DNA of 44,652 bases from an uncultured Clostridia bacterium. GTDB lineage: Bacteria; Bacillota; Clostridia; Christensenellales; UBA3700. Shown here in pieces: positions 25,688 through 42,908 of this stretch (its first letter is position 1; the number at the start of each line of letters is the position of its first letter). Where the stretch lies: positions 1 to 44,652 of the forward strand of contig CAMFVQ010000053.1 of assembly GCA_945992255.1 (NCBI GenBank), written 5' to 3'. The notes below the pieces were generated by a model. It ran no database searches and was not told the DNA's origin. It saw only the letters and a program-made list of their open reading frames with translations. Made by a program: the position numbers and the translations under genes.

Positions 25688-26770
25688 TTATTCTGCGTCC
25701 TCACGCATTGCTTCCTCTACTAGGTCTTGCACTGAGCTGTATGGTTTTACATCGATTTTCCAACCAGTAAGCTTGGCAGCAAGTCTAACATTTTGACCAG
25801 CTTTGCCGATTGCAAGAGATAGTTTGTCATCAGGAACGATTGCTCTTGCAGTCTTTTCATCTTCGTTGACTTGAACCATCATAACTCTAGCTGGGCTGAG
25901 CGCACGAGAGATATATTCTGGAGCATCTTGACACCAACCGATGACATCAATTTTTTCGCCATTGAGTTGTTGAACGATAGAATTGATACGCATACCTTTG
26001 TTACCAATACAGCTACCTACTGCATCGATAGAACTATCTTCAGCATATACAGCCATCTTCGTACGATAACCAGCTTCTCTTACGATATGCTTGATTGATA
26101 CAAGACCAGCTTTAATTTCTGGCACTTCCATTTCGAACAATCTCTTTACGAAGCCGATATTTGCACGAGATACAAGCACTTGTGTAGAACCACGGCTAGA
26201 GGTACGAGTTGTCTTGACATATACTTTGATAACATCACCGATAGCATATTTTTCGCCTTTGATTTGGTCAGCAGGCATCATCACGCCTTCGAGTTGAGAA
26301 CCTGTCATCTCTACATAAACAGTGTCATTCTCGATTCTTCTTACGATAGCGTTGAGGATTTCGCCCTCTTTGTCGTTCATCTCTTCGATAACCATGCTCT
26401 TGTGGTGGTCGTTCAATCTTTGGGTAATCACTTGTTTAGCAGTTTGAGCAGCAATACGGCTAAAATCTTTTGGAGTGATATCTTCCTTAATCAAATCTCC
26501 TACCTTGTATGTGCTTTTGATAGCTACAGCATCTTCGAGAGAAATTTCCTTTTCTGGATCTTCTACCACTTCTACAACTGTCTTGTAAGCATAAAAATTG
26601 ATAGAATTTTTGGCATCATTTAGTACAACGATGACATTGCGAGCTTCGCCACTTTCTCTCTTGTATGCAGAAGCAAGTCCTGCTTCAAGTGACTCAATGA
26701 AAGTCTCTCTGTCGATCTTCTTTTCTCTTTCCAAATCAGAAAGTGCAGCAAAGAAATCTTTGTTAATCAT
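25688..26770 (-). CDS. nusA: NusA transcription factor
   Basis: NusA binds RNA polymerase and modulates pausing, termination and antitermination. The 360-residue product has the N-terminal polymerase-binding domain (about 1-125), an S1 domain (about 133-200) and two KH domains (about 200-345), with SRANIGFVKRLFEMEVPEI and GSCIGNKGMRINSIVQQLNGEKID visible. It lacks the acidic C-terminal repeats of enterobacterial NusA, as usual in Firmicutes. AGGAGG precedes the ATG. It lies 9 bp after rimP. Confidence 0.97.
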   Translation of the reverse strand: MINKDFFAALSDLEREKKIDRETFIESLEAGLASAYKRESGEARNVIVVLNDAKNSINFYAYKTVVEVVEDPEKEISLEDAVAIKSTYKVGDLIKEDITPKDFSRIAAQTAKQVITQRLNDHHKSMVIEEMNDKEGEILNAIVRRIENDTVYVEMTGSQLEGVMMPADQIKGEKYAIGDVIKVYVKTTRTSSRGSTQVLVSRANIGFVKRLFEMEVPEIKAGLVSIKHIVREAGYRTKMAVYAEDSSIDAVGSCIGNKGMRINSIVQQLNGEKIDVIGWCQDAPEYISRALSPARVMMVQVNEDEKTARAIVPDDKLSLAIGKAGQNVRLAAKLTGWKIDVKPYSSVQDLVEEAMREDAE

Positions 26771-26779
26771 TTTATCCTC

Positions 26780-27238
26780 CTAGAATTTGATTGCAGTACG
26801 AATCACTGCAATATCTTTTATATTTAACTTAATTGTTTTTTTGTCTACTTCTACTTCAACATTTTCCCCATCATAGCTGAGGAGTACACCCTCGAACTTT
26901 TTGAGTTTGTCGATTGGTTTAAAGAGTGACACTTCGACTTCGTTGCCGATATTTTTCAAAAAGTCCCTCTCTTTTTTGTAAGGTCTGTCAAGTCCCGGAG
27001 AAGATACATTGAGATTGTAAGCAGCTCCATAGGTTGGATCAAGCTCATCGAGCGGTGCATCAATAGCTCTGTGGATAGTCTCACAATCATCGAGGTCAAC
27101 TCCACCTTCTTTGTCAATAAAAATAGTAAGAGTCATCACATCATACCACTTCTTGTATTCTACATCAACGACTTCCATACCATGCTCGTTGACAATCTTT
27201 TCAACGACTGGATAAACCATATCTACAACTTTTGACAT
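26780..27238 (-). CDS. rimP: RimP, 30S ribosome maturation factor
   Basis: RimP binds early 30S intermediates around S12. The 152-residue product has an N-terminal alpha-beta domain with VYPVVEKIVNEHGMEVVDVEYKK-like sequence, the DLDDCETIHRAIDAPLDELD stretch and NLNVSSPGLDRPYKKERDF, then an SH3-like C-terminal domain. The start at 27238 has AAGGAGG close upstream. A 73-bp leader with a strong hairpin lies between its own promoter and the gene. Confidence 0.95.
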   Translation of the reverse strand: MSKVVDMVYPVVEKIVNEHGMEVVDVEYKKWYDVMTLTIFIDKEGGVDLDDCETIHRAIDAPLDELDPTYGAAYNLNVSSPGLDRPYKKERDFLKNIGNEVEVSLFKPIDKLKKFEGVLLSYDGENVEVEVDKKTIKLNIKDIAVIRTAIKF

Positions 27239-27266: not shown

Positions 27267-27292
27267 TTAGCGACCGCTTTCGCAGTCGCTAA
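27267..27292 (-). promoter_or_regulatory. Leader hairpin of the rimP-nusA-infB operon
   Basis: In the rimP leader, TTAGCGAC and GTCGCTAA pair perfectly, continued by TGC/GCG with one G-U pair, around a GAAA tetraloop: 11 pairs in all. On the minus strand ATGTTTTAC follows, a short T tract. It may be an attenuator, an autoregulatory site for NusA or IF-2, or an mRNA-processing hairpin. A role as terminator for the gene before it is also possible. Confidence 0.55.
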
Positions 27293-27389: not shown

Positions 27390-28919
27390 TTATTTAAGTT
27401 GTAGTTTGTTGGCCTCTTTGATAAACAGTCTTGCAGTTGCCTCTGCGTCGAAGTATGCACGGTGAGCATTGTTGAGTTCTATACCCAACTTTTTGCAAAG
27501 AAAACCTAAGTTGTATCTGCCAAAACCGGGGAATGCTTTTTGGGCAAGTTGGAGCGAATCGTACACCATATTATCAAAACTCATACCAAGGCTTTTACAT
27601 TCTCTTTTGACAAAACTAACATCGAATCCAGCATTGTGTGCAACGATTATACAACCCTTGCAATAGTCCATAAAATCAGGCAAACAATCTTCGATATATG
27701 GAGCGTCAGCCACATCTTTGTCATAGATATTGTTGATAGAACTTGCACCTGCAGGAATGAGCATTTTTGGGTCAACCATAGTGCTATAATAGCTGACAAT
27801 TTCGCCCTTTACAAGCTTGACAGCACCTATCTCGATTATGCGGTCACGCTCTGTGTCCAAACCTGTTGTTTCGAGGTCGAATACTACCACATCACGATTT
27901 TCGAGTAGCTCACAAGTTTCTTCCAAAAAGTCCATAAGATTGGAGTTGCCACTGCCGTGATATGGCATTGGATATGACTTATTTTTCTTCTTTTGGGCAT
28001 CATAAGATGCTTTCATATTGGCTTGCATTTCATCAAAATCTATCTTACAATAATCAACTTTTTCCGCAAAAAGACACAACCCTTTGCGATAATCATCTTC
28101 TTCGAGCTTACCTTCGACTACCAGATATTGATCATTTTCCACACAGTCAAGGCATGCTTTTTTCTTGCTCCTGGTGAACACCATTATGTCCATAGTTCCA
28201 GTGGTATCATCAAGCGTAAAAGTATAAAAAACATAGCCTTTTGTCTTGGAAACTCTGCGAGTAAAACCACTCACACAGCCGCATACGCATACACTATCTT
28301 TTGGCTTGTCGTACCTCGATATATACCTTGGTCGGCTATCTATTCCACTGCCTTTGAGAGCGTGTTGGGCTGATATGTTGACAATGCCTCTATCGATATA
28401 AACATCTTCTTGTTTTACCAAAATTTCTCGTGTATCTTGTTTGCCAATTTTGACAAGATTTATGGCTATTTTGTCGGCAACAAAGTTACGATTTAGATAA
28501 TCAGTCATCTTGTCCACAATGCCTGATTTTTGCATATAATCACATACACAATCAAAGCATGGAAGTGTGATTTTTACAGCATTTTTGGATATGTTTACAG
28601 CTATATTTTCTTCATCGATTTGACCTATGAGAGCCTTGTTGTTTTCCACAAAATAATTCTTGACAACTCGCTTGATAATATCTTCATCAAGAGTGCTTTT
28701 TACATAGCGAAAATGTACAGCAAAAGTATCTGGCATCAGCTCTCTACAATTCTTTTCGAGGTCTTCTCTGACGTCATCATTCCACACTTTGTAGTCAATA
28801 TCATAAGGCAAAACAATCACCATTTCGACGCTAAAATTTTCTCTGTCGAACACTACTTCTTTTATGCGGACAAATGGGAATTTATTGTCGGTTTTTTCGC
28901 TAAGTTTTTTCAAAAACAT
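27390..28919 (-). CDS. PolC-derived exonuclease: N-terminal, OB and DEDDh domains, no polymerase
   Basis: The 509-residue protein matches the first part of Gram-positive PolC. Residues 1-200 resemble its N-terminal domain. An OB fold lies at about 208-295 (VCVCGCVSGFT, then LVVEGKLEEDD). A DEDDh 3'-5' exonuclease lies at about 343-505 with all catalytic residues: D348, E350, D433, H486 and D491. A linker of about 30 residues joins OB and exonuclease where PolC has the first half of its PHP domain. The second PHP half, palm, fingers and beta-binding region are absent, and the gene ends with its own stop before a new promoter. It lies at the usual polC position between ispG and rimP, with GGAG before the ATG. 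It may proofread in trans for a DnaE polymerase, or do repair or RNA-end trimming. It is not simply a DnaQ gene, because the PolC N-terminal and OB domains remain. Confidence 0.85.
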   Translation of the reverse strand: MFLKKLSEKTDNKFPFVRIKEVVFDRENFSVEMVIVLPYDIDYKVWNDDVREDLEKNCRELMPDTFAVHFRYVKSTLDEDIIKRVVKNYFVENNKALIGQIDEENIAVNISKNAVKITLPCFDCVCDYMQKSGIVDKMTDYLNRNFVADKIAINLVKIGKQDTREILVKQEDVYIDRGIVNISAQHALKGSGIDSRPRYISRYDKPKDSVCVCGCVSGFTRRVSKTKGYVFYTFTLDDTTGTMDIMVFTRSKKKACLDCVENDQYLVVEGKLEEDDYRKGLCLFAEKVDYCKIDFDEMQANMKASYDAQKKKNKSYPMPYHGSGNSNLMDFLEETCELLENRDVVVFDLETTGLDTERDRIIEIGAVKLVKGEIVSYYSTMVDPKMLIPAGASSINNIYDKDVADAPYIEDCLPDFMDYCKGCIIVAHNAGFDVSFVKRECKSLGMSFDNMVYDSLQLAQKAFPGFGRYNLGFLCKKLGIELNNAHRAYFDAEATARLFIKEANKLQLK

Positions 28920-29048: not shown

Positions 29049-30083
29049 TCAAAATTCTTCGATGAGCTGTCTAAGTCTTGGCAAAATTTGTTCATTTTCG
29101 ATTGTTTCTACCACTTTTCCATTAACAATGAGTGCAGATTTGCCTACTCCGCCAGCCACACCAAAGTCACAACCTTTGGATTCGCCTATACCATTTACAA
29201 CACAGCCCATCACTGCAATTTTGATATTTTTTTGCACATTTTGGCATAGTTTTTCTACTTGTTCTGCAAGCTCTTTGACATTGATATTTGTGCGAGCGCA
29301 AGTTGGACAAGCAATGACTTCGGCGAATGGTTTGTTATATTTATCCACCGCTTTAAGAATTTCGATACCTGCATAGATTTCTTTGACAGGATCATCGGTG
29401 AGCGAAACACGGATTGTGTCGCCTATGCCGTCCACCAACAAACTACCTATACCCACGGCAGATTTGACAAGTCCACGAGTATATGTACCTGCTTCGGTAA
29501 CACCAATATGCAATGGATAATCGCATGCCTCGGCAAGCAATCTGTATGCCTTGATCATCTTGGTAACATTGGAAGATTTGGCAGATATGATAATGTCATC
29601 AAAGCCACAATCTTCAAGTAGTCGAACATGCTCTAAGGCACTCTCTTTCATAGCAATTTCTAGTGGCAAGTTCTCATATTTTTTGTCCAAAGAGCCACCA
29701 TTGACACCAATACGGATAGGAATTTGTCTTTCTTTGAGATAGTGAGCTAGGTATTTTACATTGTCTAAGTTGCCGATATTGCCCGGATTGATACGAATTT
29801 TGCTGATACCATTGTCGGCGGACATAACAGCCAAACGGTAGTCGAAATGAATATCCGCAACGAGCGGAATATGAATCTGCTCAACAATTGGCTTGATTGC
29901 CAAAGCACTTTCCTTGTCCGGAACTGACACTCTAACAAGCTCACAACCAGCTTTTTCTAGCTCCAAAATTTGTGCTACAGTGCCATCGATATCACGAGTT
30001 TTGGTGTTGGTCATAGATTGAACAACTACACTGCCATCACCAATATTAAGATTGCCAACTTTTACTATTTTTGTCATACTCAC
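29049..30083 (-). CDS. ispG: IspG (GcpE), HMBPP synthase
   Basis: IspG is the iron-sulfur enzyme that converts methylerythritol cyclodiphosphate to HMBPP, the sixth MEP step. The 344-residue product has the N-terminal TIM barrel with VQSMTNTKTRDI, and a C-terminal cluster domain with cysteines in CPTCARTNINV and MGCVVNGIGES. The dxr-rseP-ispG order is the classic one. The ATG overlaps the rseP stop by 4 bp and has GGGGTG ahead of it. Electrons are expected from flavodoxin or ferredoxin. Confidence 0.97.
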   Translation of the reverse strand: MSMTKIVKVGNLNIGDGSVVVQSMTNTKTRDIDGTVAQILELEKAGCELVRVSVPDKESALAIKPIVEQIHIPLVADIHFDYRLAVMSADNGISKIRINPGNIGNLDNVKYLAHYLKERQIPIRIGVNGGSLDKKYENLPLEIAMKESALEHVRLLEDCGFDDIIISAKSSNVTKMIKAYRLLAEACDYPLHIGVTEAGTYTRGLVKSAVGIGSLLVDGIGDTIRVSLTDDPVKEIYAGIEILKAVDKYNKPFAEVIACPTCARTNINVKELAEQVEKLCQNVQKNIKIAVMGCVVNGIGESKGCDFGVAGGVGKSALIVNGKVVETIENEQILPRLRQLIEEF

Positions 30084-42560: not shown

Positions 42561-42585
42561 AATAAAAAACTCCACCGAAGTGGAG
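42561..42585 (-). terminator. Terminator of rnpB
   Basis: CTCCAC (42570-42575) and GTGGAG (42580-42585) form a stem with a CGAA loop (TTCG on the transcript), followed on the minus strand by six T and further T-rich sequence. It lies directly after the P1 helix of RNase P RNA. Confidence 0.9.
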
Positions 42586-42908
42586 CTGAGATAATCTATA
42601 AGCCGAGTTCTGTATTGGATGTTCATCTATCTAGACGTGTTGTTGCCAGCACGTTCGAGCGATTTTCTGACACGGCAGGCTACCGATATGTCATTTTCTC
42701 TTGCACCGAGTGGGGTTTACATGGCTCCCCTAGTCGCCTAAGGGACGGTGAGCTTTTACCTCGCCTTTCCACCCTTACCAACAATGTTGGCGGTTTATTT
42801 CTGTTGCACTTTCCTTCAAGTCACCTTGACTGGTAGTTAGCCAGCACTCTGCCTTGTGGTGCTCGGACTTTCCTCAAGCAATGCTTGCGAACATCTGGTT
42901 ATCTCAAC
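42586..42908 (-). ncRNA. rnpB: RNase P RNA, bacterial type A
   Basis: This is the catalytic RNA that matures tRNA 5' ends. The conserved core is clear on the minus strand: GAGGAAAGTCCGAGC (P3/P4 side), GGAAAGTGCAACAGAAATAA, ACCGCC, GGTAAGGGTGGAAAGG, AAACCCCACTCGGTGCAAG and the 3' segment ACAGAACTCGGCTTATAG. The ends pair to form P1 (GAGATAA with TTATCTC). The order of elements is that of the ancestral type A RNA, not the Bacillus type B. The length, about 323 nt, is on the short side. The promoter and terminator directly flank it. Confidence 0.96.

Follow-up and report, generated by a model that had tools for sequence, protein, structure and literature searches.

A PolC remnant without its polymerase is retained as a putative DnaE1-replisome subunit in uncultured gut Clostridia

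In the window, a 44,652-nt stretch of DNA from an uncultured Clostridia bacterium, the gene at the polC position encodes only the N-terminal domain (NTD), the OB fold and the DEDDh exonuclease (Exo) of PolC. We propose that this short PolC is a PolC-derived, usually clamp-tethered subunit of the DnaE1 replisome, which would proofread in trans where its active site is intact, and give this reading, drawn from sequence, a probability of roughly one in two. The best reading of its history is that of an ancestrally trans-acting proofreader whose structural role can outlive catalysis.

Surveys of bacterial replication distinguish three systems, DnaE1 alone, PolC with DnaE1 and PolC with DnaE3, and raise the question of PolC's role in Clostridia alongside a DnaE1 that seems complete (PMC3919608, PMC12926913). 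The surveys of 2013 and 2026 describe DnaE1-only Clostridia and exonuclease-less PolC; neither they nor further searches of an open-access library yielded a PolC with NTD-OB-Exo alone. The short form was probably overlooked because the clade considered here consists almost entirely of metagenome bins, whereas complete genomes were the basis of the 2026 survey.

Results

The gene encodes the front half of PolC

The open reading frame begins with ATG and ends, as the sequence-only reading had noted, with its own stop, TAA (Table 1). Pfam detected an OB domain at residues 210-279 and an RNase_T domain at residues 345-499 (E 3.5e-37) and no PHP or polymerase domain in the 509-aa protein, and no polymerase core was matched inside the gene or nearby. 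The PHP domain split around Exo, a PolC trait, is absent according to both Pfam and alignment with full PolC, and the NCBI PolC model (TIGR01405 / NF001688) scored the protein at 187.7 bits against a curated cut-off of 873. In profile-profile comparison (hhalign) with full PolC in the same order, the NTD, OB and Exo matched with probabilities of 97.8%, 99.2% and 100%, respectively, and a mismatched pair used as negative control gave 0.3%. The three domains are homologous to the PolC parts and follow the same order along the protein. Pfam, hhalign and alignment thus agree on the domain composition that the sequence-only reading had given, including the loss of PHP and polymerase parts. The five catalytic residues that it named were also correct, and are invariant across a 58-sequence alignment.

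The structure prediction and PolC comparison that the same reading had suggested gave an AlphaFold model (from 58 relatives) with a mean pLDDT of 92.5, whose top Foldseek match was PolC 9qpc; the OB and Exo (residues 186-509) superpose on PolC residues 218-597. The exonuclease fold is near those of DinG and ExoX as well as that of PolC. When modelled alone (AF2), the NTD gave a pLDDT of 94.7 and two KH-II-like units, with the KH-II folds of uS3, Era and EngA as its best structural matches. Such units have already been published for the PolC NTD. The relation of this domain to tau domain V, known from the literature, did not surface in PDB structure searches. A linker does replace the first PHP half as had been claimed, but it measures about 45 residues rather than about 30.

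The gene order at the locus, ispG-[polC]-rimP-nusA-ylxR-L7Ae-infB-rbfA, is that of the usual polC place, in line with the conserved position claimed earlier. A separate rimP promoter had also been claimed, for which no sigma-70-like minus-strand site was found in the 151-nt gap before rimP. This gap holds a perfect 11-bp hairpin with a GAAA loop (27267-27292) in the rimP leader, the 157-nt leader having a z-score of -4.0; no Rfam family matched at the polC locus, this hairpin included. Elsewhere in the window, a class A RNase P RNA lies at 42583-42906 on the minus strand.

Table 1 Features of the short polC locus in the window
Feature	Position	Strand	Basis
Short PolC gene, NTD-OB-linker-DEDDh exonuclease, 509 aa + stop	27390..28919	-	ORF, Pfam, alignment, hhalign
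PolC-type NTD, residues 1-165, two KH-II-like subdomains	28425..28919	-	hhalign, AF2 model, KH-II structural matches
OB fold, residues about 182-293	28041..28376	-	Pfam PF01336, hhalign
OB-Exo linker, residues 296-342, in place of first PHP half	27894..28034	-	alignment with full PolC, same order
NSNLM, residues 325-329, degenerate copy of QxxLF clamp-binding-like motif	27933..27947	-	linkers of relatives
DEDDh 3'-5' exonuclease domain, residues 343-509; D348, E350, D433, H486, D491	27393..27893	-	Pfam, alignment, structure comparison
ispG, upstream neighbour, conserved	29049..30083	-	ORF list, loci of relatives
rimP, downstream neighbour, conserved; ATG at 27238, good Shine-Dalgarno	26780..27238	-	ORF list, loci of relatives
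nusA, conserved downstream	25688..26770	-	ORF list, loci of relatives

DnaE1 is the only C-family polymerase in the genome

The source genome (1.48 Mb, 62 contigs, about 98% complete) was searched for full PolC, DnaE1 and DnaE3 as had been suggested, and only one DnaE1 was present: a 1226-aa protein with an intact PHP active site, the sole C-family polymerase of the genome. PolC in full length and DnaE3 are absent. Replication must therefore rest on DnaE1, and the clade as a whole would now replicate with no other polymerase of this family. Of the two routes that the sequence-only reading had offered, the move to a DnaE-type enzyme agrees with this result, and the second PolC elsewhere was rejected for want of a match. 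A split polymerase gene elsewhere was likewise rejected, the C-family matches in the genome being DnaE1 and two small PHP proteins.

The PHP metal ligands of DnaE1 (HHDHEHCDH) are kept in every readable sequence, two misread frames being left out, so DnaE1 may proofread by itself. The clamp-motif region of the genome's own DnaE1 (L010:1509-5189) reads GQLTFGMLF, and relatives read GQMSLF; both clamp motifs of the window's species, in the short PolC linker and in DnaE1, are atypical. The only other RNase_T protein in the genome (L009:964-2061, 365 aa) has a DEDDh-like pattern by eye and adjoins an alanine racemase-like gene, directly downstream of it.

The short form is widespread in the order and probably arose once

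The same full-length form of ~510 aa was found in about 147 of the 297 genomes of the order (profile match E < 1e-100), and the diverged families f16, f19 and f32 (genus g84) gave profile matches at 1e-30 to 1e-78. Full PolC is present in 98 of the 297, and in families without it the short form is almost universal. Elsewhere in the order, and in the class as sampled, PolC has 1,350-1,500 aa; no short form was found in the class sample outside the order, where the exonuclease matches were full-length PolC. In the contig scan a single-sequence query gave no match, whereas an alignment query did. None of the five catalytic residues varies at the 30 loci examined; ispG flanks the gene there, as does rimP-nusA where detected in the flank. 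The short form also occurs in named public records, among them Candidatus Coproplasma avicola, C. stercoripullorum, a bin labelled 'uncultured Christensenella' and numerous gut MAGs from ruminants, rabbits and birds; in GTDB terms the order would probably be Christensenellales. Three candidate fusions were rejected: the long frames in L124 and L182 are merely open frames upstream, and L153 is a full PolC cut by the contig end.

In the DnaE1 tree (69 genomes) the short-form genomes lie on one side of a branch with SH-aLRT 100, and in the exonuclease tree on one side of a 99% branch. The simplest account would therefore be that the PHP and polymerase parts were lost once, in an ancestor, with the polarity of loss in these unrooted trees resting on the generality of full PolC in the sampled class and, according to the literature, elsewhere in Bacillota.

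A clamp-binding-like motif lies in the linker

In the relatives, the linker contains a conserved V-x-P-x-P-Y block followed, directly before the exonuclease, by a motif Q-x-x-[LMIF]-[FLY], such as QSNLF, QATLF, QGNLF, QLSLF or QTDIF. By a reading of the linker table, 51 of 52 active sequences from families other than f1 have this motif, always at the same fixed spot. A looser count over the whole linker gave 58 of 71, where shuffled linkers would give 12.6, with two of the 58 off the spot, and the stricter pattern Q..[LMI][FLY] occurred in 45 of 66 linkers, where the remainder of the proteins would predict about 0.02 per linker. Named public MAGs, taken as an independent set, have the motif as well.

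Bacterial clamp-binding peptides follow the consensus QL[S/D]LF or QxxLF (PMC12309361). Since the linker carries a motif of the QxxLF type, it is predicted to bind the sliding clamp. In full PolC a QxxLF stands at the C-terminal end, a part that the short form has lost, so that the linker motif is new in position. In f1, the window's own family, a Q-led motif occupies the spot in only 5 of 19 members (QQNIF, QGDLF, QTSMF and others), and the window reads NSNLM and its congener TLNLF. Because of this degeneration, the tether in the window's species may be weaker or rest on contacts of the NTD and OB.

The exonuclease has lost its active site in lineages of three families

The DEDDh residues are intact in 71 of 82 sequences examined. 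They are gone in all 11 sequences of f16, of f19 except genus g94, and of genus g84 in f32, where sets such as YRTDH, HNTKT and SMTRI replace DEDHD. Both f19 and f32 also contain active sister genera, so that at least three losses of the catalytic residues have to be assumed, and catalysis is dispensable in the lineages concerned. The PHP ligands kept in DnaE1 suggest that PHP proofreading may make the exonuclease expendable. According to the 2026 survey, inactivation in Pol III alpha subunits affects the PHP domain and not the DnaQ proofreader.

The dead-exonuclease proteins retain frames of 490-560 aa, the NTD/OB match and the same locus (ispG, usually rimP). Their linkers have Q-led hydrophobic peptides at the spot (QLSFA, QTTFV, QMSFV, QQSLI, QSSLY), on position by pattern in 5 of 11 and mostly still there by eye in the others. 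Because these lineages keep the protein, a structural role besides catalysis is indicated. The short PolC might even be mainly a structural factor, with the NTD, OB and clamp motif joining DnaE1, the clamp and its loader to one another and with an exonuclease of secondary, dispensable function. The persistence of frame, NTD/OB, neighbours and Q-led peptide after loss of the active site is what such a factor would leave; however, every other family keeps the five catalytic residues without variation, so exonuclease activity is under selection in most of the clade, and the motif is on position in fewer than half of the dead set. We regard this alternative as rather unlikely.

Separate DEDDh exonucleases of about 195-230 aa were seen in several genomes of the clade, both with a dead and with an active short PolC (L309, L310, L311, L314, L317), with that of L317 lying in a 434 aa frame. 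Some full-length PolCs of the same order also have a dead embedded exonuclease (L338-L346 and L348, from f10, f12 and one f31 genome); they keep the polymerase and the C-terminal clamp motif despite the lost DEDDh residues.

Discussion

We consider the gene to be what remained of polC when an ancestor lost, probably once, the PHP and polymerase parts, and its NTD-OB-Exo half would now serve the replisome as a subunit of its own. In most lineages the QxxLF in the linker replacing the N-terminal PHP half would tether the short PolC to the sliding clamp, the OB domain would bind single-stranded DNA near the primer end, the NTD would contact the clamp loader or DnaE1, and the exonuclease would remove DnaE1 misincorporations in trans, in addition to proofreading by DnaE1's own PHP domain. 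Architecture, conservation, distribution, locus, single origin, PolC absence, motif and active-site state are the sequence-based steps of this proposal, from which we infer complex formation with DnaE1, clamp binding, DNA binding by the OB and exonuclease activity.

A trans-acting proofreader had been suggested by the sequence-only reading. It is plausible and has a precedent in B. subtilis, where, within a stable ternary complex, the PolC exonuclease corrects errors of DnaE in trans (PMC5627055), but the dead-exonuclease sublineages and the intact PHP active site of DnaE1 do not fit it, so proofreading cannot be the whole story. A more specific version, in which the front half of the lost polymerase is a clamp-tethered subunit with a separable structural role, with the exonuclease inactivated three or more times and the scaffold kept, is offered tentatively.

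The short PolC could instead be a 3'-5' exonuclease of repair or recombination, no longer tied to the fork. DEDDh exonucleases have many repair roles, the fold resembles DinG and ExoX, and DnaE1 has its own PHP proofreader; nevertheless, the PolC NTD and OB are retained, the clamp-motif-like peptide is conserved and the gene still sits in the polC place beside rimP-nusA, which makes this alternative improbable. A decaying relic or assembly artefact, with which the degenerate motif in the window and the fast divergence (24-53% identity to relatives) would agree, is highly improbable, and the artefact is refuted, because the same architecture with invariant catalytic residues recurs in independent assemblies from more than 10 families, as opposed to an error near 27390, and because the short form is ancient and common at this locus in relatives without a full polC elsewhere.

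Compared with full PolC, the short PolC has the NTD, OB and DEDDh exonuclease in the same order and chromosomal place but lacks both PHP halves, the palm/fingers/HhH and the C-terminal clamp motif, carrying an internal clamp-like linker motif instead. Like the epsilon subunit (DnaQ) of E. coli Pol III, it would be a separate DEDDh proofreader beside DnaE1 with a clamp-binding peptide, predicted here, next to the exonuclease; the window's protein has the DEDDh active site, and the peptide is present in nearly all relatives outside f1 and degenerate in the window. Unlike DnaQ, it is derived from PolC with the PolC NTD and OB, its motif precedes the exonuclease rather than following it, and the DnaE1 PHP active site is intact. 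The B. subtilis case likewise has a PolC exonuclease serving another polymerase, but there it is part of a working PolC and here the sole remnant. Exonuclease-less PolC variants (PMC3919608) also exemplify PolC domain loss within Clostridia; they are the mirror image, having kept the polymerase and lost the exonuclease.

This clade of uncultured gut Clostridia, which dropped the PolC polymerase and kept only NTD-OB-Exo, is a natural experiment suggesting that the N-terminal half does part of PolC's work in bacteria with PolC and DnaE1. With its active, dead, motif-intact and motif-decayed members, it forms a test set for separating proofreading from scaffolding. Moreover, it suggests that a built-in proofreader may have turned into a free accessory subunit for another polymerase.
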